Position numbers and translations under genes: made by a program. Source: Rhodoferax sp. (GTDB taxonomy: Bacteria; Pseudomonadota; Gammaproteobacteria; Burkholderiales; Burkholderiaceae_C). Taken from it: DNA of 64,000 bases. Within the stretch, counting starts at the first letter, position 1; the number at the start of each line of letters is the position of its first letter. Under the pieces are notes generated by a model. It saw only the letters and a program-made list of their open reading frames with translations. It was not told the origin of the DNA and made no database searches. This document shows, in pieces, positions 30,201-53,571 of the stretch. The stretch lies in assembly GCF_030697375.1 (NCBI RefSeq), contig NZ_JAUYQD010000024.1, positions 1 to 64,000 on the forward strand, given 5' to 3'.

Positions 30201-30205
30201 ACGCC
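30201..30205. repeat. Target-site duplication ACGCC, left copy
   Basis: ACGCC immediately precedes the TGT terminus of the transposon; the identical ACGCC follows its ACA terminus at 53572-53576. Five-base duplications are typical of Tn7-family insertion. Confidence 0.9.
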
Positions 30206-30301
30206 TGTCAACAATCAGAAGTAATTGAAACAATTGAGCTGTTTTTCATGGTTTCCATCCAAAAATTAATGAGACAAAGTGCAGAAGTTGGTGAGACTGT
30301 C
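30206..30301. repeat. Transposon left end with three TnsB-type sites
   Basis: Site L1 30213-30232 (AATCAGAAGTAATTGAAACA), L2 30261-30280 (AAAAATTAATGAGACAAAGT) and L3 30282-30301 (CAGAAGTTGGTGAGACTGTC). L1 is separated from L2 by 28 bases while L2 and L3 are adjacent. This spaced arrangement differs from the tightly packed other end. Confidence 0.8.
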
Positions 30302-36051: not shown

Positions 36052-36055
36052 CGCA

Positions 36056-37075
36056 ATGAAAGGGTTCACTGCGTCGCTGTGGCCTATCCGATACAAGCCG
36101 TTTCCCGATGAACTGCTTTCATCCTGGCTGGTGCGCTTGGCACATGGCCATGGCCTGAAGGTCCAGACCTTCTGTAATCTGATCTTTGGCAATCGCAATC
36201 AAGTTTGGAATCGGGATGTTGACCGATTCGGCCCCGAATGGCTGGTCCGCGAACTCAGCGTGCGTACTGGCACGCCCATGGATGTCGCTTACGCAACGAC
36301 GCTGCGATCCTACGAGGGGCGGCTATATGCCAAGTTCAGGGCATCGGGGACCTTGCCCTGGTTGCAGACCCTGAAGGTGTACCACCGTACCCGAGAGGGC
36401 TTTGGTTTGCAGTACTGTGGGGCATGTCTGGCAGAGGACGCTACGCCGCATTTCCGCAAAGCCTGGCGGGTCTCGTTCAACACAATTTGCGTGAAGCACG
36501 ACCGCATGCTTCATGACCGCTGCCCGCAATGCGGTTGTGCGATTATGTTTCACCGGGTGGAGATGGGGCGCGGCAGCGCGTTTGATGCACTCTCGATGAC
36601 GACGGCATGCCATGCCTGTGGGTTTAATCTGTCGGAGTCACCGAGCGAGCCGATCACGTCGTATGACTTGCAGGCCTCGGCTTGGCACGCGAAATTGTGC
36701 AACTCCTTGGGGCAGAGTGCGGACCAGGCGATTGCCCAGATTGATCTGGACGCTATGCGCGTGATGCATCAATTGACCGCCATATTGCTATCACGCTACA
36801 AGACTGTCAGCTTGAGGGATCACGCCTGCCAGCAGCTTGGGATCGAGGTTCCGGTTTTGCTCTCCGGTCGTGTGTCAATTGAGACCCGACCATTGGCCGA
36901 GCGCCATCACTTGATGCAGTTGGTAGCGTGGCTTTGGGTGGATATGGAGCCGCGGCTTCATGCGGCATGGCGCAGCAGGGCGGTGCGCTACAACCATCTC
37001 TGCAAGGACTTTGAGGATCCTCCGATTTGGTATGTTCGGATCGTTGAGAAATTTTCGAACTGGAGAAATCGCTGA
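36056..37075 (+). CDS. tniQ: TniQ/TnsD-like target-selection protein
   Basis: A 339-residue zinc-binding protein. The TniQ opening is WPIRYKPFPDELLSSWLVRL (9-28). Two zinc clusters follow: YCGACLAEDATPHFRKAWRV, then CVKHDRMLHDRCPQCGCAI and CHACGFNLSE. The start MKGFTASLW is used because the longer frame lies within tnsC. It is the only TniQ gene in the element, so it is the best candidate for recognising the 3' end of lipA; it is about 170 residues shorter than Tn7 TnsD (508), so the DNA-reading C-terminal part is short. It is followed by the IS5-family insertion. Confidence 0.88.
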   Translation: MKGFTASLWPIRYKPFPDELLSSWLVRLAHGHGLKVQTFCNLIFGNRNQVWNRDVDRFGPEWLVRELSVRTGTPMDVAYATTLRSYEGRLYAKFRASGTLPWLQTLKVYHRTREGFGLQYCGACLAEDATPHFRKAWRVSFNTICVKHDRMLHDRCPQCGCAIMFHRVEMGRGSAFDALSMTTACHACGFNLSESPSEPITSYDLQASAWHAKLCNSLGQSADQAIAQIDLDAMRVMHQLTAILLSRYKTVSLRDHACQQLGIEVPVLLSGRVSIETRPLAERHHLMQLVAWLWVDMEPRLHAAWRSRAVRYNHLCKDFEDPPIWYVRIVEKFSNWRNR

Positions 37076-38853: not shown

Positions 38854-39948
38854 TTAGAGTGGCAAGCTAGGCCCCTTGGTGCCATCAGAAACAATGACCC
38901 CGCAGCCCCGCGTTTCAAAGAGGTCTACGCGGTAGAGTTGGGGTAGGCTGTTGCGGGTTTTGTTCAAGATCCAAGTGGCGATGCTCGCGGGGTCGCAGTC
39001 GATCAAATCTGGTATCTGATGGAGAGGCTGATGATCCAGCATTTTGAAAATCGGGTTGAAAATTTCTTTGACGTCACCGAAGTCAATCGTCCATCCCATT
39101 ACCGTGTCCAACGGCGCTGAAAGATATAGTCGCAAGGTATAGGTGTGACCATGTATCTTGCGACGTTTACTCCCCTCGGGCGCATACTTGAATTGCAGGG
39201 CGCTATCGAGCGTGAGTTCTTTCCAAATTTGATAGGACGTCCCGTCATAGTTGGCCCCGCAACTTGCAGTCTCATAAACTGTCACAGCAGACAGTTCAGG
39301 CAAAGTTGGTTTAACCCTACTCCATATCCAACTCGAAAGCATTTCGCTGGTAGGATTTTCTAGACCCGGTAGTTCGTTGAGGCAAGCATGATCCAGGTCT
39401 TTCTCAATTGGTGCCCAACAAGTGTCAAGGTGGTCATAGTCGATGCTGAGATCGCGCGTACCAATTTCGTGGTTCGCATGAATGATTACTTCAAACCCGT
39501 GACCGTGCATGTTTCCGCATTTGTGACCAGCCGAAACGTTCGGTAGTTGGTGTGCAGACTGGAACGCATACCGACGCCAAACCTGCGCATTTCCAAACAT
39601 GTCAATCTCAACTCCTTCATTCGCAGTACTCTGCACCCCAATGGTTTCCATTCCTGGGATGTAACAATGAAGATTGACCCAGCGAGCAATGTTTTCATCT
39701 GTTGGTGGTTCAATTTGTTCGTTGAGTAGTCGGTAATCAAGCTTTTTTATCTGAGCTTCCAACCTTGACTTTATGACGTCAATTTCGCCGCCGGGGTATG
39801 GGGAGAAATCTTTTGCCAGGGAGCAATGAACTGTCGCCAAAAAACTGTGGCCATGTAACCGTCGTGAACGATGGTTTTCAGGCAAAACATCAACATGCCT
39901 CGCTGCCTCAAATGGTGCAGAAGCAATAAAAGTAATCTTGTTCGTCAT
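38854..39948 (-). CDS. Triple-domain QueD/PTPS-like protein (6-carboxytetrahydropterin synthase)
   Basis: A 364-residue protein made of three consecutive QueD-like modules. The middle one (about 128-245) is complete: SAHQLPNVSAGHKCGNMHGH gives the zinc histidines and catalytic Cys, KDLDHACLNELPGLENPTSE the Asp-His, and VYETASCGANYDG the Glu. The first module (about 5-120) keeps RLHGHSF but has Ser/Arg at the Cys position and Tyr in LDYRLLNE. The third (about 247-360) keeps IHGHTYTL, LDHQPLH and ETRGCG but lacks the Cys and the first His. So only the central domain should convert dihydroneopterin triphosphate to 6-carboxytetrahydropterin, an early step to preQ0. It is divergent from the dpd-like operon. 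Confidence 0.85.
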   Translation of the reverse strand: MTNKITFIASAPFEAARHVDVLPENHRSRRLHGHSFLATVHCSLAKDFSPYPGGEIDVIKSRLEAQIKKLDYRLLNEQIEPPTDENIARWVNLHCYIPGMETIGVQSTANEGVEIDMFGNAQVWRRYAFQSAHQLPNVSAGHKCGNMHGHGFEVIIHANHEIGTRDLSIDYDHLDTCWAPIEKDLDHACLNELPGLENPTSEMLSSWIWSRVKPTLPELSAVTVYETASCGANYDGTSYQIWKELTLDSALQFKYAPEGSKRRKIHGHTYTLRLYLSAPLDTVMGWTIDFGDVKEIFNPIFKMLDHQPLHQIPDLIDCDPASIATWILNKTRNSLPQLYRVDLFETRGCGVIVSDGTKGPSLPL

Positions 39949-39982
39949 TTCAAACTTTCAGGGCTCATTGTCAAAAAATGCA

Positions 39983-39997
39983 GACAGGATTACTGTC
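39983..39997. promoter_or_regulatory. GACAG-N5-CTGTC inverted repeat upstream of the queD-like gene
   Basis: GACAGGATTACTGTC has perfect 5-bp arms and lies 35 bp before the queD-like start. A further GACAG (40020) lies 33 bp beyond. It is a candidate operator for the minus-strand gene. Confidence 0.35.
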
Positions 39998-40388
39998 ACT
40001 TCCCGGTCGAAGGGGCGACTGACAGTTCGAATGCTCCAGTCGGCGTGCTGAATCTTGTTCGATTGACTGTCCTAAGGGCATCGGAGCCTGCTGGCCGTGC
40101 CATTGCATCATTCAACTTTGCTTCCCAGAACGTTCAAACATTGCTAAGAGTCGGAAAAGGCAGCGAACAAATTAGCAGTTTTGTTAGTTTACGCCAGTGA
40201 GCAGGCAATTTGATGTGGAAGATAGCGTCGTCTGACCACGCGCCTTCTCGGATACCTGATGCGCACGTCAAATCGTCCTCCCTTGATAAAACACAAGTGC
40301 TGGCGACACACAACACAGACTTCCAGTGCTGGTTTTGGCGCACCGTAGCTCTGGAGCAACAAAAATATCAATTGACATGAGATTTAAT

Positions 40389-40451
40389 GCATTAAGCATT
40401 TACTGTCAAACGCATTAAATGCACAATACGTATTTTATAAAAACGCATTAA
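40389..40451. promoter_or_regulatory. Three GCATTAA boxes in the promoter of the modification operon
   Basis: GCATTAA occurs at 40389-40395, 40412-40418 and 40445-40451 (starts 23 and 33 bp apart). The first is part of a larger palindrome (AATGCATTAAGCATT) and the second of GCATTAAATGC. TATTTTATAA (40431-40440) between boxes two and three looks like a -10 element. The third box ends two bases before the GTG start, leaving no room for a ribosome site, so a leaderless transcript or a controlled start is likely. Confidence 0.55.
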
Positions 40452-40453
40452 TT

Positions 40454-41368
40454 GTGTTACTGATCGCCCCCTGTAGCGCTACAAAAAAATTCCCCGTACC
40501 TTCCAACTTGAGAGGCACGGACGTTCACGCGTCTAGTCTCTATGGATACGCAAGACAGTGGTTGGAGCGCATTGAAAGCGCTGACGCAGTTTGCGCGGCA
40601 AGAAATCTTTATGGCGGCGTTGGGCACAAGGCAGTGGTTAGTGCGAGCGAGTTGCATGGCGTCGAACTGATGTTTGTTTCGGCGGGTCTTGGTCTGGTTA
40701 AAGCAGATCAGAAAATACCGTCCTACGATCTGACGGTTACGCCCGGAGGCCCGGGACCGTTTGGAGTACTGGATATTCCGTACCATCCAGAACAATGGTG
40801 GGGAGCGATTCACCACCGAAGTAGCGCAAAGATGCCGCTCGCTGAAATGGTCCAAGAATACAAGGGTACGGTCGTTCTGGCGTTGCCATCCGTGTATCTA
40901 AAGATGCTCTTCGACGATCTCGATGCTGTTGATACCAAACACATTGCGAAGTTAAGAATAATAACCACTGCCAATTCCACGCTGCCAGCAAGACTGCGCG
41001 AACAATCCATTGCGTACGATGACCGCTTGAACGGTATTGCCGGAGCCAGTACTGGTGCTATGACATCGCTCGTGCAGCGAGCAGCCCTTCATTTCATTGG
41101 CAGTGTTTTGACAGATCACCGTGTTGGGGCCATCGACGCTCAGCGAAAACGGGTTGGCGCCGCTTTGTCTGCCGTAAAGACAATGGATCGACCGACAAGG
41201 AACAAGTTTGGTGACGTAGCCATTGTTCGCATGATAAAGAAAATGACGCATGAGCAGCGGTCGTCAGTTACGACCGCATTGACCACTCTGCGCCATACGA
41301 AACAAGTTGCTTGTGAGCAGAACCGTTTCAAAGGACTCTATGAGAAAGCGATGAATGCAGAAAAGTAA
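40454..41368 (+). CDS. YaaA/DUF6884-like protein, first gene of the dpd-like operon
   Basis: A 304-residue protein from a GTG start with no Shine-Dalgarno sequence. The N-terminus LLIAPCSATKKFPVPSNLRG, with a Cys after the first strand, and the segment LMFVSAGLGLVKADQKIPSY resemble the YaaA/DUF328 and DUF6884 families. Members of this group occur in 7-deazaguanine DNA-modification clusters, where such a protein (DpdC in Salmonella, as I recall it) converts preQ0 in DNA to the amide. A role in finishing the modified base is therefore plausible but unproven. It overlaps the next gene by 14 bp. Confidence 0.6.
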   Translation: MLLIAPCSATKKFPVPSNLRGTDVHASSLYGYARQWLERIESADAVCAARNLYGGVGHKAVVSASELHGVELMFVSAGLGLVKADQKIPSYDLTVTPGGPGPFGVLDIPYHPEQWWGAIHHRSSAKMPLAEMVQEYKGTVVLALPSVYLKMLFDDLDAVDTKHIAKLRIITTANSTLPARLREQSIAYDDRLNGIAGASTGAMTSLVQRAALHFIGSVLTDHRVGAIDAQRKRVGAALSAVKTMDRPTRNKFGDVAIVRMIKKMTHEQRSSVTTALTTLRHTKQVACEQNRFKGLYEKAMNAEK

Positions 41369-42497
41369 GAAGCCGACCGAGCCGGAAGTCATCCGAGTCT
41401 CGGCTATTCAATTCGAACAAGGCGACCACAAGCTATACACCTTCGCGCTGTCCGGTGGAAAGATCGCTCAAATTGCAGACTTCAGCAGACTGAAGAAAGG
41501 CGAATCGGGCGAGTTGCTCGGATTTCAACGGAAGGAAATTCAGCAGCACGTAAAGCAAATAGTCGACTACCTAAATCAAGGTGCCATGCTCTTCCCAAAT
41601 GCGATCATTCTGGCCATATCCCCAGAGCTGAAATTTGACAAGGCAAGAGGTAGTCGAGGTGCCAATGTGGAGCCATCTGGGCAACTTGGTTATCTCAACC
41701 TTCCTGTTGGTGGAAGTGAGCGCAAAGAGGCATGGATTGTGGACGGTCAGCAGCGCTCCCTGGCACTTGCTAAATCAAAGAATCCAGAATTACCGGTACC
41801 AGTCATTGCGTTCGAATCGATGAGCGTTGATATGCAGCGTCAACAGTTCATCTTGGTGAACAGAGCTAAGCCACTCTCGCAGCAACTCGTGAACGAATTG
41901 CTACCGGTAACCGATGAGACGTATTTGCCAAAAAATTTGGCCATGAATAAGGTACCTAGCAAGTTGTGTGGATTGCTGAATGAGAGCCCTAAGTCGCCGT
42001 TCTATGGGCGGATCGACCGAAAGTCGGCGAAATCAACCAGAGCGGTCGGCTTTAATGACACCGCAATCATTGCCATGATTCGCGAGCGCATTAATACGCC
42101 TCTTGGCGCGCTCGGTCACCTCAAAGGATTTCAGGGCGAGCATTCCGACTATGAGGCCATGTACAAGATTTTGGACGCATACTGGTGCGCTGTATCTGAA
42201 GTGTTTCCTGAAGCTTGGAATCTTCCGCCGTCGAAAAGCCGTCTTACCCATAGCGCCGGCATCAAAGCTATGGGGTCGCTGTTGGATCGGATTGCCAGTC
42301 GCGTTGATTTGAAGCAAGAAAGACTCAAAGCGGCATTTGTTAAAGAGTTGACCCCGATGGCGAAAGCTTGCGCGTGGACGTCTGGACGATGGCCTTACAT
42401 TCAAATGCAGTGGAATGCCATTGAACAGACTCATCGGAGCGTGCATGAACTCACGCGCGCATTGACAAGCCTCTACATGGAGGTAGCGCGCGCATGA
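41355..42497 (+). CDS. DGQHR-domain protein 1 (DndB/DpdB-like)
   Basis: A 380-residue protein with the ParB-like DGQHR core: LLGFQRKEIQQHVKQIVDYL, the signature WIVDGQQRSLALAKS (about 121-135) and QQFILVNRAKPLSQQLVNEL. The C-terminal part is helical and conserved between paralogues 1 and 2 (SRLTHSAGIKAMGSLLD; CAWTSGRWPYIQMQWN). DndB in phosphorothioation and DpdB in deazaguanine systems share this core; DpdB is needed with DpdA for base insertion. It overlaps dpdA by 4 bp (ATGA), so translation is coupled. Confidence 0.78.
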   Translation: MQKSKKPTEPEVIRVSAIQFEQGDHKLYTFALSGGKIAQIADFSRLKKGESGELLGFQRKEIQQHVKQIVDYLNQGAMLFPNAIILAISPELKFDKARGSRGANVEPSGQLGYLNLPVGGSERKEAWIVDGQQRSLALAKSKNPELPVPVIAFESMSVDMQRQQFILVNRAKPLSQQLVNELLPVTDETYLPKNLAMNKVPSKLCGLLNESPKSPFYGRIDRKSAKSTRAVGFNDTAIIAMIRERINTPLGALGHLKGFQGEHSDYEAMYKILDAYWCAVSEVFPEAWNLPPSKSRLTHSAGIKAMGSLLDRIASRVDLKQERLKAAFVKELTPMAKACAWTSGRWPYIQMQWNAIEQTHRSVHELTRALTSLYMEVARA

Positions 42498-43771
42498 AAT
42501 TCATTTTTGCCGATGCCATTGATCAGATTGACCCCGGTTTCAATTTCTTGACCGACGAGAATTCGGTTGGTCGAAAGCCATACTGGAACGATCAATACCC
42601 TCACGAGTTCTTTAAGAAGGCGCCCTATGACGGCGTGCTGATTTCAAGAGGGATCGTCGGTGATTCGTCACGCAAGGGGAAGTACTCAGACGCCCATGCG
42701 ATCAGATTTCGCCGCGAAGGCGCTAGATCGTTTCTTCGAATGAATAATGCCCTATACAAAGACATGCCGATTTACGGCGATTGTGGAGCGTTCTCGTACG
42801 TAATGGAAAAGGTTCCGCCTTACACGCCTGACAATATGGCTGGATTCTATGCAGATGGCGGATTCAATTTTGGTTGCTCTGTCGACCACATTATTTTCGG
42901 ATTTAGGCCGGAAGATAAGGGCCTCGATGGAGCTGCCCCGGAAGAGCGAGAGAGATTCGACATCACTCAACAAAACGCGCGAGACTTTCTAAAGGTTACG
43001 AAAGGCATTCCTGGTTTTACTCCAATGGGAGCGGTGCAAGGTTGGTCCCCCGAAAGCATGGGTATTGCGGCGCAAAACCTTGAGAAGATGGGATACAAGT
43101 ATTTGGCAATAGGAGGAATGGTTCCTCTGGATGCGAAGCAGGTCCATCTTGCCTTGAAAGCGATACGGAATAAGCTGAAACCAAGCACTAAATTGCATCT
43201 GCTTGGTTTTGCGAAGGCCGAGCAGATAAGCGAATTTACAGACTACGGAATAGCTAGTTTCGATTCGACGTCGCCGCTTCTTCGTGCCTTTAAAGATGCC
43301 ACCGCAAACTATTACGTGAACCGGGCGGACGGACTTCTGGATTACTACACAGCCATTCGGGTCCCCCAGGCATTGGAGAACCGGAAGCTGACCAACGCAG
43401 TTCGCGAAGGCAATCTTGATCAAGAAGAACTTGCGCAGCGAGAGTTTGCCGCCCTCAAAGTGTTGCGAGCCTTCGACATCGGGAAGGCCAGTGGTGCAGA
43501 TGCGGCCAAACATGTTCTTTCCTACCTCCGTCTCTTCTTGAGTGTCGACTATAAAACTCCGCTTGCTTTGGATAAGGCTCTAGCAAAGTCTGAGAAAAGT
43601 CTCATGAGAACGCTCGCGGCAAAACCATGGCAGTCTTGTGGATGTGAGGTATGTCGACAAGCGGGAATCGAAGTCGCCATATTCAGGACCAGCAACCGTA
43701 ACAAGCGCCGAGGTTTTCATAACCTGCACGTCTACTTCAATCATTTAAAGCGCATTACCAATGGTAGTTAA
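42494..43771 (+). CDS. dpdA: DpdA: DNA-guanine transglycosylase (TGT-like)
   Basis: A 425-residue TIM-barrel protein that starts MKFIFADAIDQIDPGFNF, as DpdA proteins do. It is related to tRNA-guanine transglycosylases: IYGDCGAFSY (Asp96) matches the guanine-pocket motif, and SFDSTSPLLRAF (Asp257) matches the nucleophile strand of TGT. The zinc site is CGCEVC (Cys382, 384, 387) with HNLHVYFNH following. The family exchanges guanine for preQ0 in DNA. It is flanked by two DGQHR genes with overlaps of 4 and 11 bp. It is not the host tgt, which has TDSGGFQ and lies outside this element. Confidence 0.88.
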   Translation: MKFIFADAIDQIDPGFNFLTDENSVGRKPYWNDQYPHEFFKKAPYDGVLISRGIVGDSSRKGKYSDAHAIRFRREGARSFLRMNNALYKDMPIYGDCGAFSYVMEKVPPYTPDNMAGFYADGGFNFGCSVDHIIFGFRPEDKGLDGAAPEERERFDITQQNARDFLKVTKGIPGFTPMGAVQGWSPESMGIAAQNLEKMGYKYLAIGGMVPLDAKQVHLALKAIRNKLKPSTKLHLLGFAKAEQISEFTDYGIASFDSTSPLLRAFKDATANYYVNRADGLLDYYTAIRVPQALENRKLTNAVREGNLDQEELAQREFAALKVLRAFDIGKASGADAAKHVLSYLRLFLSVDYKTPLALDKALAKSEKSLMRTLAAKPWQSCGCEVCRQAGIEVAIFRTSNRNKRRGFHNLHVYFNHLKRITNGS

Positions 43772-44843
43772 GAACATTCTCAAATTTGAAGCATTGGCGG
43801 CGCACCAGAGCGCCAACCACGAAGTCGTGATGATTCGTGCCAACGCTGAACAGATTAATGCAATCGCTCAAATTGAGCGCTTAGGTCGTAAGGAAGGAAA
43901 ACTCACTGGATTTCAGCGTCCTCAGATCGCCGGCCACATTACTGAAATCCGGAACTATCTTGCTAAGTCCGACGCGGTGTTGCCCAACGCCTTAGTGCTT
44001 GCCTTTGTCGATGGCGCGAAAATCATCAAAGGTAAAGGATCGGTCGTCACGCTCGAAGTCGACGTGAGTAATGGAAAGCCTGCATTGGTGGTCGATGGGC
44101 AGCAACGACTAACAGCGTTGACCCAAACTCGGCGAGATGATTTTGAAGTTTTTGTGGCTTGCCTGATTTGCAAAGACATGGATGAACTGCGGCGTCAATT
44201 CATTCTGATCAACAACACCAAACCACTTCCAAAGTCACTGATCTACGAGTTGCTTCCCTCGGTTGAAAATCTTCCGGAAAGGCTGTCCTCGCGCGCGTTG
44301 GCGGCTGCAATGACTGAGCGTCTCAATTTCGATGACGGGAGTTCACTAAAAGGAATGGTCAAGATGCAAACGAACCCGAGCGGCATTATCCGGGACACAA
44401 TTTTGCAAAAAGCGATCATGAATTCTGAGTCCGCTGGTGCTATTCAGACGTTAGCGCAACGCTCGGAAGATGTTTCTGAGCCTGTTGCGCTGATGAGCAA
44501 CTTTTACGCCGCTGTCAAGAACGTATTTGCCGATGACTGGGTTGGCCATGATCCAAAGACCTCCCGTCTGGTTCATGGGGCAGGAGTGATCGCGATGGGC
44601 TACGTCATGGACGAAATTTACACCCGCACGGGTAAATCAACGGTGGAATCTTTCGCTGAAGGTCTGCAACCGTTGGTCGGCGCAACAGCGTGGACCGCTG
44701 GGGAGTGGAATTTTGGCGCGAACGAGATTGTTCCGTGGAATCGCATTGAGTACACGCCACGACAGTATGTTCAGTTGGCAGAACATCTCGTTGGCATATT
44801 GAGGAAGTCGAGCAAGGTCAAATCCGTTGCCAGGAGCCGTTAA
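43761..44843 (+). CDS. DGQHR-domain protein 2 (DndB/DpdB-like)
   Basis: A 360-residue paralogue of the gene upstream of dpd[21 protein letters not shown], the core [16 protein letters not shown] (about 111-126), [20 protein letters not shown], and the C-terminal [20 protein letters not shown] and [11 protein letters not shown]. It overlaps dpdA by 11 bp and queC by 1 bp (TAATG). Tight coupling with dpdA makes this and paralogue 1 the likeliest DpdB-type partners, perhaps as a heterodimer; that is inference. Confidence 0.78.
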
Positions 44844-45550
44844 TGCTGTTCAACAGGGCGCTCGTATTGTTTTCCGGTGGTCAGGATTCAACCACTTGTC
44901 TGGCCTGGGCACTGGATCGATATGCGCATGTGGAAACCATTGGATTTGACTACGGGCAGAAACATCACGTTGAACTCAACGCCAGGCAGGTCGTTCTCCA
45001 ATCTATCAAAAATAAGTTTCCGGCGTGGGCTGCCCGTTTGGGCGCGGACCATATGATCGACTTGGGTGCGCTCGGAAAAATTAGCGATACCGCGCTAACG
45101 CGAGACAGCGCAATCAAGATGACTGTGGCCGGACTGCCGAATACGTTTGTTCCCGGTCGCAATTTGCTATTTCTCACTCTTGCGGCGAGTGTGGGCTATC
45201 GTCGCGACTTAAGTGTAATGGTTGGGGGAATGTGTGAAACGGACTTCTCTGGCTATCCGGATTGCCGCGACGACACCATCAAAGCGCAGCAGGTTGCGGT
45301 CTCGTTAGGCATGGGGCAACGCTTCACGTTCGAAACGCCATTGATGTGGATAGACAAAGCAGAGACTTGGGCTCTTGCTCATCGCTTGGGCGGTGACGCG
45401 CTTACCAAAATCATTCTTGAAGATTCGCACACCTGTTATCACGGCGTACGCGAACGGATGCATTCTTGGGGGTACGGGTGTGGCGAGTGCCCCGCATGTG
45501 AGTTGCGCAAGGCAGGGTATCAACGCTGGGTTGAAAGCGTTGCAGCATGA
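44843..45550 (+). CDS. queC: 7-cyano-7-deazaguanine synthase QueC
   Basis: A 235-residue ATP-dependent preQ0 synthase. The PP-loop is [18 protein letters not shown] (8-25). Family segments [31 protein letters not shown] and [15 protein letters not shown] follow. The C-terminal zinc ribbon has [11 protein letters not shown] and [16 protein letters not shown] with four Cys. It makes preQ0 from 7-carboxy-7-deazaguanine, the base DpdA would insert. The start overlaps the previous stop by one base; its stop overlaps the start of the queE remnant. Confidence 0.95.
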
Positions 45551-45735
45551 CTTACACGGTTAAGGAGATCTTTTACACGCTTCAGGGCGAAAGGGCAAAC
45601 GCTGGGCGTCCCGCCGTATTTTGCTGATTCAGTGGGTGCAACTTGTGGACTGGGCGAGAGGAAGATCGACGCACTGCTGTCTGCAAATTGGCTCGTCAGG
45701 GGAATCTGTGCCCAGAGGGAAAAGATCAAACACTA
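45547..45735 (+). pseudogene. queE: queE remnant (7-carboxy-7-deazaguanine synthase), nonsense and truncated
   Basis: The frame begins with the ATG overlapping the queC stop (ATGA) and reads [20 protein letters not shown] then RPAVFC, a TGA stop, and FSGCNLWTGREED, a clear QueE N-terminus. Three faults are visible: Gly to Arg in the conserved LQGEG, TGA where the arginine of CRFSGCN should be (CGA to TGA), and loss of similarity after TAVCK, before the third radical-SAM cysteine. The rest of the 220-residue protein is absent. The cluster must use the chromosomal queE. Confidence 0.85.
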
Positions 45736-45827
45736 CGACGGTAGCCGGTATGATAGGCCTCAAATAAGACTTGCTTCAAGATCGCATGTTTGATTTTGGA
45801 GTCAGGCCGTCAAAAAGGGGATGATGC

Positions 45828-46640
45828 TTGGCTGTTCTTTCTGAAGTGACGCGATGGGTGCCCGAAACCGACGGTGAGCGACTTTTTATGGCCGCGTACG
45901 AAATGGCCGCACCCTGCGTCCCGGTCCTGTTTGGCGGTCAGGCCTGGGTTGTTTCTCCAGAAGGTATGACTGAAGCCTGCCGATTGTCCGCCGCAATGGA
46001 AATAACGCATCGATGCCTCAACGAGGGCGTGGATCTTTACACCGCAAATCCACAAGCGTCGGTTGACCCGATGGTACACAGGCTGAGGCTCGTCATTGGC
46101 ATGTATCAGATGAATGAGGTGGCATTGCGTGTCGCACAGGTCACTCGACTCGCTTCCCTGGCCTATATAAATCGGCAACTCTCGCCGAGCCGAATAAAGC
46201 AGGTACATCAGACGGAGCGCAAGTTTTGCTGTTGGTGTGGCAATCCGACCTTAAGATCGAAAAATGCCCCGGAGAATGCTAAGGCGACTGTGGAACATTT
46301 ATGGCCCGAATTTTTAGGCGGAAATTCGGCACTGGAAAATCTTGCAATTGCATGTAGCAAATGCAATACGGCAAGGCAGCATGCGTTCACATGGGCATGG
46401 TTTTCCACACCAGCGATAAATGAAAAGTTGGACGTGAATGGCGCCGTACCGAGAGAAGTTGAATTGGCAATTGCTCTTCACAGATTAATCAAAGTAGCGA
46501 GTGGTCAATCGCCGCTGTCTACAGTTAGAACCACCCTTAAGGCTGCCATGCGACTGCTAAACGGAGCCATACCAAACCTGAATTTGCCTGCAAACAGGCG
46601 GTTCACATATTTCGAAATATTGCAAAATTCAACGGAGTAA
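45828..46640 (+). CDS. HNH endonuclease-like protein in the modification operon
   Basis: A 270-residue protein from a TTG start (AGGGG ten bases upstream). An N-terminal helical domain (1-130) has no recognised family. Residues about 133-190 carry an HNH zinc domain: FCCWCGNPT, VEHLWPEFLGGNSALENLAI and ACSKCNTARQHAF, with both Cys pairs and the His/Asn core. A DNA nuclease acting on unmodified DNA, or a nicking partner for base exchange, are both possible. It is followed after 2 bp by DGQHR protein 3. Confidence 0.7.
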   Translation: MAVLSEVTRWVPETDGERLFMAAYEMAAPCVPVLFGGQAWVVSPEGMTEACRLSAAMEITHRCLNEGVDLYTANPQASVDPMVHRLRLVIGMYQMNEVALRVAQVTRLASLAYINRQLSPSRIKQVHQTERKFCCWCGNPTLRSKNAPENAKATVEHLWPEFLGGNSALENLAIACSKCNTARQHAFTWAWFSTPAINEKLDVNGAVPREVELAIALHRLIKVASGQSPLSTVRTTLKAAMRLLNGAIPNLNLPANRRFTYFEILQNSTE

Positions 46641-46642
46641 CC

Positions 46643-47866
46643 ATGGCTACGATCAAGAAAACCACGAAAAAAGCGCCTGCCAAGAAGTCGGTGATAAAAA
46701 CCGAGAGCTATCTTGCATTGGAAAACGTACAAAGATCGGACACCAAGGATCTGCGGTTCTTTCTCTTTCATGCGTCAGCTTCGGAAATCTTTCAATGGGG
46801 TTTAATTGATCGAACGTCGCCAGAGAAGCCAAAGGCGATTCAACGAAGACTCAATAAGACCAAGGTCTTGCGAATCAAGGAATTCCTTGAGCAACCTGGA
46901 AACACGATAGCCACGTCTGTGATCGTTGTTTTTAATGACAATCAAGTGTCTTTCGTTGAAGAAGAACTGCCCGACGGGGGATGCTCTGGCTTCGGAACCT
47001 TGTCAGTCTCTTGGAAACCAAGCTCGCCGGCTGGGATCATCGTCGATGGGCAGCATCGAGTAATTGGTGCAAACAGTTTTCAACAAGAGGACATTCATCT
47101 CAATGTGATCGGAATTCTTGGTGCTGATGATGATGAAGGTGCATTTCAATTCTTGGTCATAAACAACAACAGTTCTAAAGTAAATCCGAGCCAAGTGAAA
47201 GCATTGTTTACGTCTTATAAGGAAGAAGATTTGGTCAGTCGGATGCTTGCAAGCGGGAGTACCAACATTGATTCGGAGAAGATAACCGCGTTGCGGGTCT
47301 TTGATGAAGGACCGGATAGTCCATTCAATGGACAACTGAAGTGGCAAAAGAACGCTGTCGGGTTCATCGCTCCCAATGCGTTGGAGGCGGGGCTCGGTGA
47401 GGTCCAAAATCGCAGCGCTCTGCTGGCTGTTACTGATTCGGAGCTCGATACGTTTTTGGGAATATGGGCGGCTATTCGTGCCGAGTGGGCTGCTCTTTGG
47501 CATGCCGAAACACATCTTTTGGAAAAAGCTTGCTTCCAGGTAGTAACTGCCTATATTTGTGATTCTTTGGAACAGTTCCGGACCTTTAGCGACGAAAGCG
47601 TCGACTACACAGATCCCGATGTTCTAGCCAAAGGCGTAAAACGAATTTTGAAACGGATTGAACCGAACTTTTTCGAGGTGCAGTGGGCGCGAACTGGTCT
47701 AGATACTCGCACTGGTCAAGAGTTGTTGATGATGGATTTGAAGACCATGGCCAGCAACATTAAAGGTTCGCGCCCGTGGCATAAAGGGCTAGAAACCGTA
47801 AACGTGGGTGCCGTGTCTGGCGATCAAATCAAAAAAGGAGATCGTGCAAAAAAGGTTAAGAGCTAA
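46643..47866 (+). CDS. DGQHR-domain protein 3 (DndB-like)
   Basis: A 407-residue protein with a lysine-rich N-terminus (TIKKTTKKAPAKKSVIK) suited to DNA binding. The core is GIIVDGQHRVIGANSF (about 130-145), here in the canonical DGQHR form, unlike DGQQR in paralogues 1 and 2. QFLVINNNSSKVNPSQVKAL follows. The C-terminal half differs from the other two and is closer to stand-alone DGQHR/DndB proteins. It is the last gene of the plus-strand operon, ending 35 bp from the convergent nuclease gene. Confidence 0.75.
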   Translation: MATIKKTTKKAPAKKSVIKTESYLALENVQRSDTKDLRFFLFHASASEIFQWGLIDRTSPEKPKAIQRRLNKTKVLRIKEFLEQPGNTIATSVIVVFNDNQVSFVEEELPDGGCSGFGTLSVSWKPSSPAGIIVDGQHRVIGANSFQQEDIHLNVIGILGADDDEGAFQFLVINNNSSKVNPSQVKALFTSYKEEDLVSRMLASGSTNIDSEKITALRVFDEGPDSPFNGQLKWQKNAVGFIAPNALEAGLGEVQNRSALLAVTDSELDTFLGIWAAIRAEWAALWHAETHLLEKACFQVVTAYICDSLEQFRTFSDESVDYTDPDVLAKGVKRILKRIEPNFFEVQWARTGLDTRTGQELLMMDLKTMASNIKGSRPWHKGLETVNVGAVSGDQIKKGDRAKKVKS

Positions 47867-47872
47867 TTGGAT

Positions 47873-47892
47873 GAGAAGATGCATTGCATCTC
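47873..47892. terminator. Possible bidirectional terminator between convergent operons
   Basis: GAGAAGATGCATTGCATCTC contains GATGCA/TGCATC arms around one base. It lies between the DGQHR-3 stop and the nuclease stop. No clear T-run follows on either strand, so the call is weak. Confidence 0.35.
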
Positions 47893-47901
47893 AGTATTGA
47901 C

Positions 47902-49101
47902 TCATGGAATAGGCGGTGGAGATATTTGGTAGCCGCTATCCCTGCCGTATGGTTTGGGGCAAAAATAGCGTGAGTCGCAAGCTGCGCATGTGTCAGGGTC
48001 TTGGCAAGACGGCTGCCAGGCTTGGGAAATATCTCCTCCAGAAATTTCATTCGAAATGCGCTTCTCAATATCAACCACCACGCTGTCGAAGGCAACTCCT
48101 GCTGCATGAATACTCGCAGGGGTTACCGAGATGACTCGCATGGCTCGTTGAATTCGAAACACTTCACTCAATTCGCGGCCCGCACCAGTCCCAGGCCGCG
48201 CGGTAGTCAATGTGTAATAGTCTGGGCTTCCCCGGGCTGGAAGCACATCTGTCAATGATTTGTCGACCTGCCGTCTTAGGCCAATGACATCCGTCGTGCT
48301 GGGGAGTAGTTCGTTGACGTACAGAACGATACCTGCGACTACCGGTTTTGCAGCGACCTTTCGGGCACGTAACCAGGCGTACATTTGGATTTGCCAGTCA
48401 TGCTGCTGCCAGTAATGCTGCTCCGAATGGCCAACATCCGGTCGTGATGCTCCTTTGTAGTCAACGATTACTTCGAACTCTGGTGGCAATACGATGCCTT
48501 CACTTGAGAGTTTTTGCTCTATGGCGGTGCGAATTAGATTGTCCGGAGCTACGTTGCTCAAACTGATGTTGGTAAGAACATCTGCGACGCCGGTTACTCC
48601 GTAACGTTCTGCACGCAAACTCACACTTGATGAATCGGATGGCAGCGGCCTTGAGCCGGCTAAGGGCTCTTCGGCAAACACCACAAGGGGGAAGAGATGA
48701 GGGCCAATCAGATTGATAGCCTCCGCTGCGCGCGTGTATGCGGTCATGCGCGCGTCACGGTTCCGAGGAATTTTGCCCTGAACGGCCAAAACGGCCTCGA
48801 CGCGTCGACCGATTTCACCGATGTCGTGTTCCGCAAGTCCCTTACCCGCTTCCCTGTCCTCCCATTCAATGGTTGTCGAAGGCCAAGGGAGTGGAATGCT
48901 TCGTTCCTTCCAGATCGTGTAGGCCATCTCCAGTACACCGTGAATGAACTCCCCGAACCAGAGTTGCACTGGTCGCGCTGGCGGCAACGCGCTCCCGTTT
49001 TGGTACCGATACTGAAGTCCGCATCGAAGAAAAGAGAGTAGATCTCCTGTCAGGCTGTAGTTTGGAATAGTGATGGGCAAATGCCGAGCATTGAGGGACA
49101 T
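47902..49101 (-). CDS. RecB-type PD-(D/E)XK nuclease with iron-sulphur cysteines
   Basis: A 399-residue protein. FLRCGLQYRYQNG (about 25-37) supplies the first cysteine and FGEFIHGVLEMAYTIW the helix with the active-site His/Glu. FEVIVDYKGASRPD (about 219-232) gives the DxK nuclease strand, and QHDWQIQMYAWLRARK the QxxxY motif. CQDPDTCAACDSRYFCP near the C-terminus completes a 4Fe-4S-type cluster, as in Cas4 and AddB. It ends up 7 bp downstream of the helicase gene, so the pair forms an AddAB-like nuclease-helicase, the probable restriction arm. Confidence 0.82.
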   Translation of the reverse strand: MSLNARHLPITIPNYSLTGDLLSFLRCGLQYRYQNGSALPPARPVQLWFGEFIHGVLEMAYTIWKERSIPLPWPSTTIEWEDREAGKGLAEHDIGEIGRRVEAVLAVQGKIPRNRDARMTAYTRAAEAINLIGPHLFPLVVFAEEPLAGSRPLPSDSSSVSLRAERYGVTGVADVLTNISLSNVAPDNLIRTAIEQKLSSEGIVLPPEFEVIVDYKGASRPDVGHSEQHYWQQHDWQIQMYAWLRARKVAAKPVVAGIVLYVNELLPSTTDVIGLRRQVDKSLTDVLPARGSPDYYTLTTARPGTGAGRELSEVFRIQRAMRVISVTPASIHAAGVAFDSVVVDIEKRISNEISGGDISQAWQPSCQDPDTCAACDSRYFCPKPYGRDSGYQISPPPIP

Positions 49102-49108
49102 GGGATTC

Positions 49109-51475
49109 TTAGATTAGTGTCAAAGGCATTTCTTCTGGCTGGGTCGGTGTTCCCTTTTTTAGCGGCGGGTTGTCTTTGCGCCAGGTCCAGTCTCCATCTC
49201 GTGCCCAAAAAGTAGCGACGTTTTGAACCGAAGTGTTGTACTCAATACTCTTTGTTAAACCCACGAGCAAAAGTGCAACCTGCGCTCGACTGTACGCAAC
49301 GTAATAAAGACGCATCAAGTCATCGAATGTTCGGTCAATGTCGCTTCGTGCGGTTCTGACTGAGCCAACTTCCGTGTGCGGCGCCATTGCTGACTCCATG
49401 AGGACGGTACTAGATGGTTCCCTTGGGAATCTCTTGAAAGCGTTCTTCGCGTGGTTCATCTTGAATTCAGATCCGACATCCACGATAACGAGGGGGTATT
49501 CCAAACCTTTGCTCTGGTGAATGGTCATGATGCTCAGACGATTCCGCGGAACTGCAAACAGAAGATCTTCGTTGACGTCTATGACCTTGTCTGCAATTGG
49601 CGTTAAGAGGTCGGAAACAACAACGTTACGACTCTGCAAGTCGTGGGGTACCTTGTTAAGTATGGTGAAACCATAACTCGAATAATGTGAGCCCTGAACG
49701 ACGCAGCGCATGATTGCCTCGAGATACACCTGGTGTTCAGGGTCTCGCTGGAATGCCGGAATCCAGACAATGAGTTTGTACAACAAATCAAGGAGAGGAA
49801 TGTCGTGCGGCCAAGGGCCGGTGGTTGCACGTCTATTGCGCCAACCATCGACATAGTGGCCAAGTGTCATTGATGCAGAACGTGGGGCCGGATTTAACGC
49901 GATGAAAGCCCGAGCGGCGTCACGCCATATGGGCAAATATCGCTTCGTATCTCGAGTGAGATACATCGGGGCCTCAATTGCGTCGGACGAATCCAAACAA
50001 AGCAGGACCAATCCCAAAAGTATTTGAACGTTGGCAATGTCCCTAAGGTCTTGGCCGCGCGGATTGAAAACACCGAGCCCGCTTCCTTCCAAATTTCTGC
50101 GAAGTTGAGCGGGAAGACGGTCCACTAAGCCGCCAGCGTTGTCGTCCTTGAATTCCCGGACGCTCGATGCAAGTAGCACAGCGTCGCCCAAAGCGCCACT
50201 GTTTTGATCTCTTCTCAAAACAGTGTTGGTTCCAGGGATGGCGTAACCTGAACCTTGAAATACGTCATTTAGGAGTTTGGAAAGATCGGCTGATAGATCG
50301 TCCATTGAGTCTCTAAAGAGCCCAAGAATGGGAATGCCGTAGCTCGGATTGAACGGCACTATGGCTGGTTTACCGGTGACCCGAGCTGCAACGAACTTGG
50401 GATCGTGTGTAGCAAAGTCATTGAAAAGCTTGACTATTTCCGGCGTAGAGCGATGGTTGGTTACTAGGTAAACAAGATGGCTACTTGCGCCAGCAATCGC
50501 AGTGGCAAATCGTTTTTGGAAATGTGTAAACAATTCAACCGTCGCGCCACGGAAGCGATACAGAGCTTGATCGTCATCGCCAACCACTGAAAATGAACAC
50601 TGAGCCTGGCGGACCACCTCCAGATAAATTGCCTCTTGCAGTGGATTCGTATCTTGGTATTCATCAACGAGAAGTGCTTTGATTGGAGGGATTGTTGAGT
50701 ACAAGGTGCCATTTTTTAAACCTTGATGGATTCGCTCAGCGCACAAAGAAAAATCGAACATTTGCTGCCCTTGCAGATGTGTCCGGTAGTTTGCAAGCAG
50801 TGTGGCTTGAGAGGACGGCGCTGTACCGGACCTCCCATACGAATCAAGATTCACGAGATCCTGAAGCAATCTATTGTTGACCGAAATGGAAAGGTTGCCG
50901 GCTTCGGTCTGATTTCGCGGTTGCTGCTTTTCGAAGTTGTAGCCGGCTAAATACGGATCCAAGACGGTCTGCGCTCCAGCGCGGTAACTTGGCGCAAAGA
51001 TCTTGCGTCGGTATACAAAATTTGCTGCAAACTCTTCGAGCATTACGGGTGTTGGCGACCCTACTTGACGCGTGCGGCCAAGCCATAATTGGCAAAAACT
51101 GTCGAGGGTTCCGGTCTGAATCGCATTGATGTCAAGTTCAGTGAGCCATTTCTCCCTGGATCCATCGTGTGAAGCCGCTGCAGTGAGTCGGAAGTGTTCT
51201 ACAAGAGTTAGCCCCCACCCAACAAGGCGACTAGAAAGTTCAGCGGCTGCTTTGCGGGTAAACGTTGTGATGAGGACCGACTCTGGCTCCATGCCATCGA
51301 CCAATACATGCCTTAAGGCTCGAAGTACCAGGACGGTCGTCTTTCCTGATCCAGGTCCAGCGACAATCATCAAAGCTGGATTCTGAGGATGTAAAACGCA
51401 CTCAAGCTGAGGTGGGTTCAAATTGCGTGCCAAGACCGACTTGACCGCGTCCGAAAATTCTTGAATTGTGATCAA
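49109..51475 (-). CDS. UvrD/AddA-like superfamily 1 helicase
   Basis: A 788-residue helicase with all SF1A motifs: IVAGPGSGKTTVLVLRALRH (Walker A), TFTRKAAAEL (Ia), LLVDEYQDTNPLQ (II), VVGDDDQALYRFRGA (III), TNHRSTPEIV (IV), MTIHQSKGLEYPLVIVD (V) and LYYVAYSRAQVALLLVG (VI). It has no nuclease domain of its own; the downstream RecB-type nuclease, 7 bp away, would supply it. Its place beside a DNA-base modification operon suggests degradation of unmodified invading DNA. An alternative is a repair role. Confidence 0.9.
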   Translation of the reverse strand: MITIQEFSDAVKSVLARNLNPPQLECVLHPQNPALMIVAGPGSGKTTVLVLRALRHVLVDGMEPESVLITTFTRKAAAELSSRLVGWGLTLVEHFRLTAAASHDGSREKWLTELDINAIQTGTLDSFCQLWLGRTRQVGSPTPVMLEEFAANFVYRRKIFAPSYRAGAQTVLDPYLAGYNFEKQQPRNQTEAGNLSISVNNRLLQDLVNLDSYGRSGTAPSSQATLLANYRTHLQGQQMFDFSLCAERIHQGLKNGTLYSTIPPIKALLVDEYQDTNPLQEAIYLEVVRQAQCSFSVVGDDDQALYRFRGATVELFTHFQKRFATAIAGASSHLVYLVTNHRSTPEIVKLFNDFATHDPKFVAARVTGKPAIVPFNPSYGIPILGLFRDSMDDLSADLSKLLNDVFQGSGYAIPGTNTVLRRDQNSGALGDAVLLASSVREFKDDNAGGLVDRLPAQLRRNLEGSGLGVFNPRGQDLRDIANVQILLGLVLLCLDSSDAIEAPMYLTRDTKRYLPIWRDAARAFIALNPAPRSASMTLGHYVDGWRNRRATTGPWPHDIPLLDLLYKLIVWIPAFQRDPEHQVYLEAIMRCVVQGSHYSSYGFTILNKVPHDLQSRNVVVSDLLTPIADKVIDVNEDLLFAVPRNRLSIMTIHQSKGLEYPLVIVDVGSEFKMNHAKNAFKRFPREPSSTVLMESAMAPHTEVGSVRTARSDIDRTFDDLMRLYYVAYSRAQVALLLVGLTKSIEYNTSVQNVATFWARDGDWTWRKDNPPLKKGTPTQPEEMPLTLI

Positions 51476-51799: not shown

Positions 51800-53488
51800 C
51801 TAAACATCAAACACCCAATGGATCAATTCCGACAAGCTAGAAGTTTCTAGATCGCTTGTGGAGCCCCGCAAGAAATCGACCGCAGCACATCGCAATGTGT
51901 CCCGAACTTCGCCAGAAGTTTCCCCAGTGGTCGTGTAGATCTTGACATGTACGGGTGACGACTCAATTGCAACCGCGCATACGTGTTCAACGTCGCGCTT
52001 GAATGCAAAAACACTGGCACGACGCATTCGAGATGTGCCATGGGTATCTACAATCATGAGTTGTGGATTTATTTCGCCATCTTCGTTTGCGAGGAGTGAT
52101 ATGGGGACAGACCATCCGTCATGTTGGCTTTCAGTCAGCAACTCAATCTCAATGTTTTGCACGGACTGCAAATCTGCAACGATTTCCCGAAGAAAAGTTG
52201 GAATGGCATCGGAGTTTATGGCATTTGTCGTCGTTACCAGGGCTAGGTCTACAGGACGTACCCTGCGTTCTGCCCCTGGTTCGCCGACCGCAGCAAAATC
52301 AACCGACTGTTGACTGGTCTGGAATGAAGCGGAACCCGATGCCGTGGATAGCGTCTTGTTTTTCCAAATGGTTTTGTGTTTGAGGTCGAGAAAACGGAGT
52401 TCTGTCTTGAATGTTTTTAGCTTGGGTGCGAGCTTATTGGATGAGTCTTGTTCGACCAGGGGTTGATCGCGTGAATCCATTGCACTGTGTTTAACCCGTT
52501 GGGGGTGTGCATCCGAGGATTCAGTAGATTGTGGCGACTTTGGTCTTAGTGCCCGCGCACCTTTCAACTCATAACGCAACGAATTGAATGGAAAGGGGTG
52601 GGCGCAAGAGCGAAGGTTATAGACTAGGAAGGTCGCTTTGAGTTGGTCACCAAATGAAAGCCATTTGCCAGAAGCCACCAAGTTGGTCCTGCCCTCAAAC
52701 GGGAACAGCGCCTGGGGATGTATTGCCTGTTGAGTCGTGGATGCCTTCAGGCAAGACACGCCAATGTGCTGGGCGGCACGCCACGCCATCGGCTCCATCG
52801 ATATACGGCCGATGTCGGCAGCAGAGGCTCCGGACATTCTTTCAGCCAACTCAATTTTCAACCGGCCTGACTTGTAGTCTAGGGATGCATTGGTGAAAAG
52901 GGTCTCCCTGATCAAGGGTGGCAGGAAGAGCTGAGAGATCAGGCTGCTGGACGATCCAAAATAAAAGCGAATGATCTCCATGCAGGGGATGATGATTCTG
53001 TGGTGACCAGGTACTTCGAGCATCACGCAGTAAGACTGCGTACATTGCATGTGCCAGGGATGCTCGGACAAGGGCAGCAGAAAACCGTCCTCATTCGGAT
53101 TCAATCCGGCTTTGATCAATGAGGTGGTGCTTTTGTCGATCTGTATATCGTCAAACTCTTCCAATTCATAGTCGGGGCGGAGCAATAGTTTGCGATCGCG
53201 CCAGATGTCGCCAATCCGCAGAAGCGGGAGCGTACCGACCGAAACCCACACGCGTCTTTGAAATTTGGGTGGGCTGGTGCATTGGGCGGACAGGAGGACG
53301 GATGAATCGATACAGAACCGTGGATCCGTCACCCGGGAAAGATGCACAAATACGGACGGTTGTTTGCGGCGAACTGTTCGATCGGGAAACGCGATATCTC
53401 CGAACCAATCAATACGCCATGCAGTTTGTCCCTCCGGAAAGGCATGGATTCTGAGGGTTTCACTGGGGGAATTGTCAGTTTTTTCCAA
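51800..53488 (-). CDS. Transposon-end protein, possibly a distant TnsE
   Basis: A 562-residue protein next to the lipA-side end of the transposon. The N-terminal TAWRIDWFGDIAF recalls the start of TnsE (WRIFVWF), and RIIIPCMEIIRFYFGSSSSL matches the TnsE element IPQLELARSLF in position and type. A low-complexity linker (about 315-355) follows, then a C-terminal alpha/beta domain (about 440-535: GWSVPISLLANEDGEINPQL, VCAVAIESSPVH) of the size of TnsE-C. The length is close to Tn7 TnsE (538). TnsE directs insertion into replicating or mobile DNA. The similarity is faint, and an unrelated cargo protein is the alternative. Confidence 0.4.
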   Translation of the reverse strand: MEKTDNSPSETLRIHAFPEGQTAWRIDWFGDIAFPDRTVRRKQPSVFVHLSRVTDPRFCIDSSVLLSAQCTSPPKFQRRVWVSVGTLPLLRIGDIWRDRKLLLRPDYELEEFDDIQIDKSTTSLIKAGLNPNEDGFLLPLSEHPWHMQCTQSYCVMLEVPGHHRIIIPCMEIIRFYFGSSSSLISQLFLPPLIRETLFTNASLDYKSGRLKIELAERMSGASAADIGRISMEPMAWRAAQHIGVSCLKASTTQQAIHPQALFPFEGRTNLVASGKWLSFGDQLKATFLVYNLRSCAHPFPFNSLRYELKGARALRPKSPQSTESSDAHPQRVKHSAMDSRDQPLVEQDSSNKLAPKLKTFKTELRFLDLKHKTIWKNKTLSTASGSASFQTSQQSVDFAAVGEPGAERRVRPVDLALVTTTNAINSDAIPTFLREIVADLQSVQNIEIELLTESQHDGWSVPISLLANEDGEINPQLMIVDTHGTSRMRRASVFAFKRDVEHVCAVAIESSPVHVKIYTTTGETSGEVRDTLRCAAVDFLRGSTSDLETSSLSELIHWVFDV

Positions 53489-53500
53489 AAAACCCCGCCA

Positions 53501-53571
53501 ATTTGTCTCGTTAACTACTGAATTTATCTCGCCAACTTCTAACTTTTCTCATTTACTTCTGATCATTCACA
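53501..53571. repeat. Transposon right end with three tightly packed TnsB-type sites
   Basis: Read on the minus strand from the terminus: R1 53544-53563 (ATCAGAAGTAAATGAGAAAA), R2 about 53522-53541 (TAGAAGTTGGCGAGATAAAT) and R3 53501-53520 (CAGTAGTTAACGAGACAAAT). The sites follow one another with a period of 21-22 bp. The dense packing resembles the right end of Tn7, which also faces its target gene. Confidence 0.85.

Follow-up and report, generated by a model that had tools for sequence, protein, structure and literature searches.

Results and Discussion

The window investigated here is a stretch of 64,000 nucleotides of Rhodoferax sp. DNA (G000:C93:1-64000), which belongs to a genome of 5.78 Mb in 115 contigs. 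Within it lies a 23.4-kb Tn7-like transposon whose cargo includes a predicted 7-deazaguanine DNA-modification (dpd) cassette, a helicase-nuclease pair, and a second pair of genes encoding an HNH nuclease and a DGQHR protein. The two pairs are probably the restriction arms of this dpd system, and none of the classical restriction genes, dpdD-K, was detected in the window. The genes named in a first-pass annotation of the locus are all present with open reading frames, and they lie where it had placed them.

The predicted DNA-modification genes

The genes predicted to supply, insert, and convert the modified base are as follows.

38854-39948, minus strand: QueD with three PTPS stretches (Pfam PTPS, 9.3e-56)
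40454-41368, plus strand: DpdC, DUF6884-like (PADLOC DpdC, E 1.2e-66; DUF6884 20.2 bits, below the Pfam cut-off of 30)
41355-42497, plus strand: DpdB-1, DGQQR (NF041060, 391 bits; cut-off 300)
42494-43771, plus strand: DpdA, predicted DNA-guanine transglycosylase (NF041059, 517 bits; cut-off 200)
43761-44843, plus strand: DpdB-2, DGQQR (NF041060, 364 bits; cut-off 300)
44843-45550, plus strand: QueC, preQ0 synthase (Pfam QueC, 6.3e-65)
45547-45699, plus strand: truncated queE remnant, limited to the first 51 residues and containing one stop, located between QueC and the HNH gene

As can be seen, DpdC, DpdB, DpdA, DpdB, and QueC are encoded in a tight run on the plus strand. The curated models for DpdA and DpdB, along with the PADLOC match for DpdC, support the initial proposal that a dpd writing arm is carried on a transposon. 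Residues 1-419 of DpdA align with a solved DNA-guanine transglycosylase (PDB 7ui4, E 9e-86), and the DCGAF, FDSTSP, and CxCxxC..H motifs are intact. By analogy with the TGT enzymes, these motifs presumably fulfill catalytic and zinc-binding roles.

The gene first described as YaaA/DUF6884-like is present and, given its PADLOC score, can be refined to a canonical DpdC. In the available portion of the GATOR-GC paper DUF6884 is equated with dpdC (PMC11888242), and DpdC is referred to as DUF328 in that of PMC12839542. Three DGQHR proteins had likewise been reported; all are present, two of them are DpdB proteins, and only the third is different in kind. The duplicated dpdB layout is common among the alphaproteobacterial relatives.

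QueD, QueE, and QueC for the supply of preQ0 were all located. In addition to the QueC and QueD of the transposon, there is a complete queE on the chromosome at G000:C1:108041-108670 and a second queD likewise on contig C1. At a related locus, L043, queE and queD occupy the position of the queE remnant observed here. The QueD-type enzyme of the first-pass annotation proved to have three PTPS stretches, of which the middle domain (domain 2) alone retains HKC...HGH, including the cysteine of HKCGNMHGH; domain 1 has a serine at this position. The possibility that the triple QueD is a dpd-specific base reader was considered and rejected, for it belongs to an ordinary family. Relatives at E 1e-60 occur in 41 of the 300 genomes searched from the order, that of the window included, and only three of these 41 (G000, G015, and G102) have DpdA over the cut-off. 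A protein search with the triple QueD gave 2678 relatives, the best 120 of which were listed. One QueD relative, P0153, contains a QueC domain within the same protein.

The helicase-nuclease pair

Two genes on the opposite strand encode the putative AddAB-like pair.

47902-49101, minus strand: AddB-like PD-(D/E)XK nuclease (Pfam PDDEXK_1, 4e-8; four conserved cysteines, C27, C372, C375, and C381)
49109-51475, minus strand: UvrD-type SF1A helicase (Pfam UvrD-helicase, 4.4e-43)

The nuclease is 399 residues long, with H54, D174, D214, K216, Q237, and Y241 as its PD-(D/E)XK residues. These six residues, together with C27, C372, and C375, are found in 84 of 84 aligned nuclease rows; C381 is found in 83 and is replaced by serine in the other. 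The four cysteines may be ligands of an iron-sulfur cluster, as such cysteines are in AddB and Cas4. The structural model of the nuclease has a mean pLDDT of 82.9, with residues 373-387 below 50. A Foldseek search with this model returned AddB as the best match (5.2e-6), followed by the Argonaute-associated, Cas4-like ACE1 (1.6e-5), at modest TM-scores by query length of 0.36-0.42 (0.36 for AddB) and root-mean-square deviations of 7-12. The E-value of the AddB match, albeit with this TM-score, and the conserved residues point to an AddB-type four-cysteine nuclease. A sequence profile of the nuclease compared with the PDB yielded chance-level matches only, to ribosomal L26.

The helicase contains 788 residues, and the SF1A motifs sought are all present, including the Walker A motif GSGKT, DEYQD, and the later motifs. 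The pair resembles AddAB in that an SF1A helicase accompanies an AddB-like four-cysteine nuclease. It differs in that the nuclease is considerably shorter than the ∼1150 residues of AddB chains and that the Pfam scan places no nuclease domain in the helicase. The helicase scores 128.9 bits on the AddA equivalog model TIGR02785, against a cut-off of 707.65.

The HNH and DGQHR module

Between the modification genes and the helicase-nuclease pair is the second module.

45828-46640, plus strand: HNH nuclease (Pfam HNH_5, 9.7e-7; C134xxC..EH157..N..CxxCN)
46643-47866, plus strand: third DGQHR protein, DGQHR3 (predicted ParB/sulfiredoxin fold)

DGQHR3 reaches only 63.5 bits on the DpdB model NF041060 (cut-off 300). 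DndI and SspE are presented as mark-sensing nucleases in the accessible text of PMC11662687 and PMC9646914. The module resembles these proteins and GmrSD (PMC4619093, likewise in its accessible text) in having a ParB/sulfiredoxin-type DGQ-R domain, here in DGQHR3, that would act with an HNH nuclease; DndI and SspE are, moreover, phosphorothioate-sensing nickases tied to a DNA-modification operon. It differs from all three in that the functions are divided between two genes, with a DGQHR (DndB-type) rather than a DUF262 protein and HNH_5 rather than DUF1524, and in that sensing is only predicted. DUF262 and DUF1524 were not found in one protein: Pfam assigns DndB and HNH_5/HNH to the separate genes. 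The sequence profile of DGQHR3 had no match in the PDB, and in a second structural comparison SspE and the GmrSD-type BrxU appeared, ranked low.

Pairs of HNH and DGQHR genes recur at dpd loci and next to dndBCDE, and a scan of 109 sequences revealed them in only 11. In a Pseudomonas plasmid (L041, 11178-13089) such a pair adjoins dndBCDE. In a Providencia plasmid (L130, 9959-11829) a DGQHR gene and a partner are situated between umuD and umuC; the partner has no HNH motif, and no dpd or dnd genes are annotated in that stretch. A search with the HNH protein against the plasmid records gave five matches, none of which spans 80% of it. The first-pass annotation had treated all of the cutting genes as one arm. 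They are better described as two separable modules, namely the helicase-nuclease pair and the HNH and DGQHR pair.

It might be argued that the cargo serves for modification only, with the base shielding host or transposon DNA from other restriction enzymes and the nucleases being passengers in decay. The queE of the cassette is, after all, already a remnant, and 7-deazaguanine bases shield phage DNA according to the available part of PMC6884629. The helicase, PD-(D/E)XK, and HNH motifs sought are all intact in open frames, however, and such an explanation is regarded as highly improbable.

Linkage of the pair to DpdA

The first-pass annotation had proposed a search for the same gene set in other genomes, and the pair indeed tracks DpdA across many phyla. 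Among 72,556 plasmid records, the nuclease was found in three, those of Bradyrhizobium 41S5, Rhizobium WYJ-E13, and Picosynechococcus PCC 73109, and all three also carry the helicase and a full-length DpdA (at least 80% coverage). DpdA at this coverage is present in 17 plasmid records, all of which were fetched.

A genome scan with one genome per species (84,980 species) gave 156 nuclease relatives, the best 80 of which, by similarity to the window, were kept and fetched with up to 10 kb on each side. DpdA was called in these loci by tblastn with 12 references at E 1e-5, such that a locus said to lack DpdA lacks it within the fetched stretch. Thirty-five of the 80 loci are of a Methanobacteriaceae type, considered below. 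Of the remaining 45, 37 have a DpdA within the fetched stretch, with scores of at least 190 bits in 34; in L092, L111, and L112 the match is weaker or cut off, and the curated cut-off was applied to L045 alone of the 37. In six more, DpdA over the cut-off is encoded at another place in the genome (L047, L050, L053, L054, L083, and L095), and in the last two, L058 and L102, which come from draft genomes as short contigs or stretches, none was found in the locus or the genome. Twelve named phyla, including one of archaea, are represented among the 37 loci, three of which have no assigned phylum, and the plasmids add a cyanobacterium. An earlier genome scan with DpdA alone had given 35 pattern matches and no relative.

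In 74 of the 80 loci the helicase gene is found directly upstream of the nuclease gene and on its strand, and in 21 of the 37 the pair has a DpdA/TGT-family gene no more than 200 bp away. In a tree of the nucleases, 44 rows (37 with DpdA in the locus) fall on one side of a branch with an SH-aLRT value of 100. The other 40 rows comprise the 35 Methanobacteriaceae-type sequences as one clade, four with DpdA in the locus, and one without. Only eight changes of the DpdA label are needed on this tree versus a shuffled mean of 28.3. The tree was built by a quick method with long branches flagged; the second nuclease copy of L075 was left out. An additional pair of Bradyrhizobium macuxiense, adjacent to dpd genes (L128), falls outside the 80 loci.

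These data bear on whether the defence genes are independent neighbors that became cargo of one transposon by chance. Transposons and islands do collect defence genes, and the HNH and DGQHR pair, with its limited occurrence and its presence beside dnd, would suit such a history. The base rate of DpdA, however, is ∼1% or less: it exceeds the cut-off in 3 of the 300 genomes searched from the order and in 2 of the 369 from the class, counts that both include G015 and the genome of the window, and in 2 of 299 and 1 of 368 genomes when the latter is excluded. The nuclease itself occurs in only one of the 369 genomes, that of the window. Given the linkage in all three plasmids and in 37 of 45 genome loci, the short distances, and the few label changes on the tree, chance assembly is quite unlikely.

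In Planctomycetota, Poribacteria, Chloroflexota, and others, DpdA, helicase, and nuclease genes follow one another in one direction. In L045 (5818-11167) and similar loci there is a three-gene run consisting of a DUF6884-DpdA fusion, the helicase, and the nuclease. The L045 fusion protein scores 346 bits on NF041059, and the DUF6884 domain at its N terminus scores 32.7 bits against a cut-off of 30; three genes of this type may therefore cover writing, conversion, and cutting. The term "minimal variant," as first applied to the system in the window, was not upheld, because the DpdC is canonical and the dpdB duplicated, while these three-gene clusters exist elsewhere.

Relation to DpdD-K

A tblastn search of the window with eight Enterobacter proteins, of which DpdE is incomplete and DpdI is named from its operon position, revealed no match to DpdD-K at E 1e-3, nor was there one in the window at E 1e-6 when Paenibacillus and A. 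vitis references were added. Within the window, then, the earlier statement that no dpdD-K genes are recognized holds. In G015, a genome of the same order, similar DpdC-B-A-B genes are accompanied by matches to DpdD, K, J, H, and F; a similar writing cassette therefore takes different arms. Among the 45 loci outside the Methanobacteriaceae type, clear dpdD-K matches were observed in four (L063, L071, L072, and L083) and weak ones in two (L092 and L111), and matches to helicases may be generic. Ten of the 17 DpdA plasmids have dpdD-K-type matches, three have a close pair and no such match, and four have neither. One of the ten, Scytonema L033, also encodes a remote relative of the pair.

Several observations weigh against the pair as a dpd restriction arm. 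It co-occurs with dpdD-K in some loci, and 14 of the 17 plasmid records with full-length DpdA are without a close nuclease relative. In addition, the 35 Methanobacteriaceae-type loci (L077-L080, L082, L084-L090, L093, L094, L096-L101, L103, L105-L110, L113, L114, and L116-L121) retain a nuclease with a full active site and have no DpdA in the stretch. Lack of co-occurrence had been named beforehand by the first-pass annotation as grounds for abandoning its proposal, and in these plasmids and loci it is partly seen. The group was first drawn from record names and the lack of DpdA and was later found to be one clade. The helicase is present in nearly all of its loci, many of which have common chromosomal neighbors. 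Whole-genome checks in four of the 35 gave DpdA matches below the cut-off only. A weak DpdJ match of 47 bits was noted in two of the 35.

The pair could instead be viewed as a maintenance factor of cells whose DNA contains 7-deazaguanine, mending breaks or DpdA-DNA intermediates that have stalled, with no part in the restriction of foreign DNA. AddAB, which is the closest of the solved structures, is a repair enzyme, the Methanobacteriaceae retain the pair as chromosomal genes, and the dependence is one-way, in that the pair mostly accompanies DpdA and not the reverse. Repair, however, would be expected wherever DpdA acts, and yet most of the DpdA plasmids are without a close relative of the nuclease. 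The nuclease is also absent from all 50,697 phage records searched. These records decide little because the same search sees a bacterial-type DpdA in only one of them (MT835580, 34181-35446, 52.5% identity), phage DpdA being too remote. Since the pair is mostly found where dpdD-K is missing, as far as the limited flanks show, the data are better explained by an effector that can be exchanged than by a factor for repair in general, and a role confined to maintenance appears unlikely.

Comparison with known dpd systems

On the basis of the sequence comparisons, the locus is best read as a dpd system whose AddAB-like restriction arm can replace DpdD-K. It shares with the Salmonella Montevideo-type system (dpdA-C for synthesis, dpdD-K for restriction), as far as that is described in the available part of PMC11888242, a single mobile island that contains DpdA, DpdB, and DpdC together with preQ0 genes. 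It differs in having the helicase-nuclease and HNH and DGQHR pairs in place of dpdD-K, which was not detected in the window, in having two DpdB proteins, and in that its mobile island is of the Tn7-like transposon type. dpd islands that lack the restriction operon have been published: the same portion of that paper describes dpdA-B with dpdC variably present, HNH genes sometimes nearby, and multiple dpdB copies, and it neither names a UvrD/PD-(D/E)XK pair nor proposes a substitute arm. In BRIGADE, a 7-deazaguanine cluster of haloarchaea, the PLD nuclease is occasionally replaced by a PD-(D/E)XK nuclease; BRIGADE is defined by YprA-like helicases in the text available (PMC12458937), whereas the helicase here is of the UvrD type. 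The YprA-type DpdJ had no match in the window by tblastn, the only search made for it, without a YprA profile. The Halobaculum locus L040 may be a BRIGADE. The literature searched, which did not reach some central dpd papers, contained no description of a UvrD/AddB-like pair serving as a dpd arm. The lack of dpdD-K in some islands, additional dpdB copies, and HNH neighbors are thus already known, and the UvrD/AddB-like arm is possibly the overlooked part.

According to the accessible text of a 2025 review, the restriction activity tied to the 7-deazaguanine mark has not been explored further, and eight associated genes lower transformation (PMC12707154). Whereas the classical arm has eight genes, a two-gene helicase-nuclease arm would make dpd restriction testable with three or four proteins. 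In some phyla this arm is directly joined to a DUF6884-DpdA gene, and the presence of relatives of the pair beside DpdA in many phyla would suggest a second way of arming deazaguanine immunity. If the reading is correct, the writing cassettes of dpd systems exchange entire effector modules, the HNH and DGQHR module is common to systems that mark bases (dpd) and those that mark the backbone with sulfur (dnd), and dpd immunity can travel on Tn7-like transposons.

Proposed function

From the protein families, it can be envisaged that the QueD and QueC of the transposon, with the chromosomal QueE, would make preQ0, which DpdA and the DpdB proteins would exchange for guanine at chosen sites. DpdC would then convert the preQ0 base into the amide, dADG. 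The later steps are suggested by genomic context. DGQHR3 may act as an NTPase that senses the mark and controls the HNH nickase, much as DndI and SspE operate in phosphorothioate systems. The UvrD-type helicase would feed unmarked DNA to the AddB-like nuclease for degradation, and in some phyla this degrading arm may be able to stand alone.

A more specific and rather doubtful version is that 7-deazaguanine functions as a chemical Chi. The AddAB-like pair would degrade DNA that it has entered until it meets a DpdA mark, DpdA and the two genes would constitute a complete immune system, and the SspE/DndI-like HNH and DGQHR nickase stacked upon it here would create entry points in unmarked DNA. 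Such a mechanism, if true, would define a second class of dpd immunity that spans phyla.

The Tn7-like transposon

The boundaries and the transposition genes of the element are as follows.

30201-30205: target-site duplication ACGCC, left copy, 5 bp
30206-53571: complete Tn7-like transposon, 23,366 bp (19-bp terminal inverted repeats, 16/19 identical, TGT start)
30216-30297, plus strand: left-end repeats, likely TnsB sites (starts 30216, 30260, and 30282)
32580-33242, plus strand: TnsA endonuclease (Pfam Tn7_TnsA-like_N, 5.9e-13)
33218-35155, plus strand: TnsB-type transposase (Pfam Mu-transpos_C, 4.1e-6)
35149-36051, plus strand: TnsC/TniB ATPase (Pfam TniB, 2.5e-64)
36056-37075, plus strand: TniQ targeting protein (Pfam TniQ, 1.4e-27, scanned as 35954-37075; reading frame open from 35954)
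53507-53560, minus strand: right-end repeats, likely TnsB sites (53507, 53528, and 53548)
53572-53576: target-site duplication ACGCC, right copy, 5 bp

The ends of the element, TGTCAACAATCAGAAGTAA and TGTGAATGATCAGAAGTAA, agree at 16 of 19 positions, and these terminal repeats and the ACGCC duplication confirm the initial suggestion that the dpd genes are transposon cargo. With TnsA, TnsB, TnsC/TniB, and TniQ also present, the element has the hallmarks of the Tn7-like group. Repeats of the type AGAAGTnnnTGAG occur at both ends. The pattern has 43 matches across the whole window versus 30 expected, and support for TnsB-type repeats therefore comes from their location at both ends. The GC content per kb is 0.45-0.59 within the transposon and exceeds 0.60 in 33 of the 40 flanking kb. 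The insertion lies in the stop codon of lipA (53567-53576). When the flanks are joined, lipA ends in GCG TGA; in the occupied site it ends in GCG TTG TGA, the final bases and new stop being supplied by the transposon. It may be that lipA is the attachment site of the TniQ.

The idea that Tn7 carriage is a common trait of the relatives was not supported. A TnsB match was observed in three of nine genomes, that of the window included, and not in the genomes whose nucleases are the three closest relatives (L042-L044). In the Sphingomonas genome there is one remote match and one partial match of 31 bits, and the Mesorhizobium genome has two pieces.

Additional genes at this and related loci

HerA-like ATPase genes are located in the same run as DpdA, helicase, and nuclease in L059 (2141-5769) and L046 (5726-7552), and the neighbor of the L059 gene falls just below the NurA cut-off. 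A two-gene module, encoding a hypothetical protein with a weak PycTM-like match and a HAD hydrolase, recurs at dpd loci (L042, 19526-21197; L067, 18457-20119; and others). Its genes were found in 9 and 10 of the 80 loci, with no tblastn match in the window.

At the right end of the transposon, a 562-residue protein (51800-53488) without a Pfam, PADLOC, or NCBIfam match could be the product of a transposition or cargo gene. At the left end (30672-32447), a 219-residue protein without a Pfam or NCBIfam match is encoded on the strand opposite to a helix-turn-helix protein with a weak ImmA-like match, and the two may form a toxin-antitoxin-like pair.

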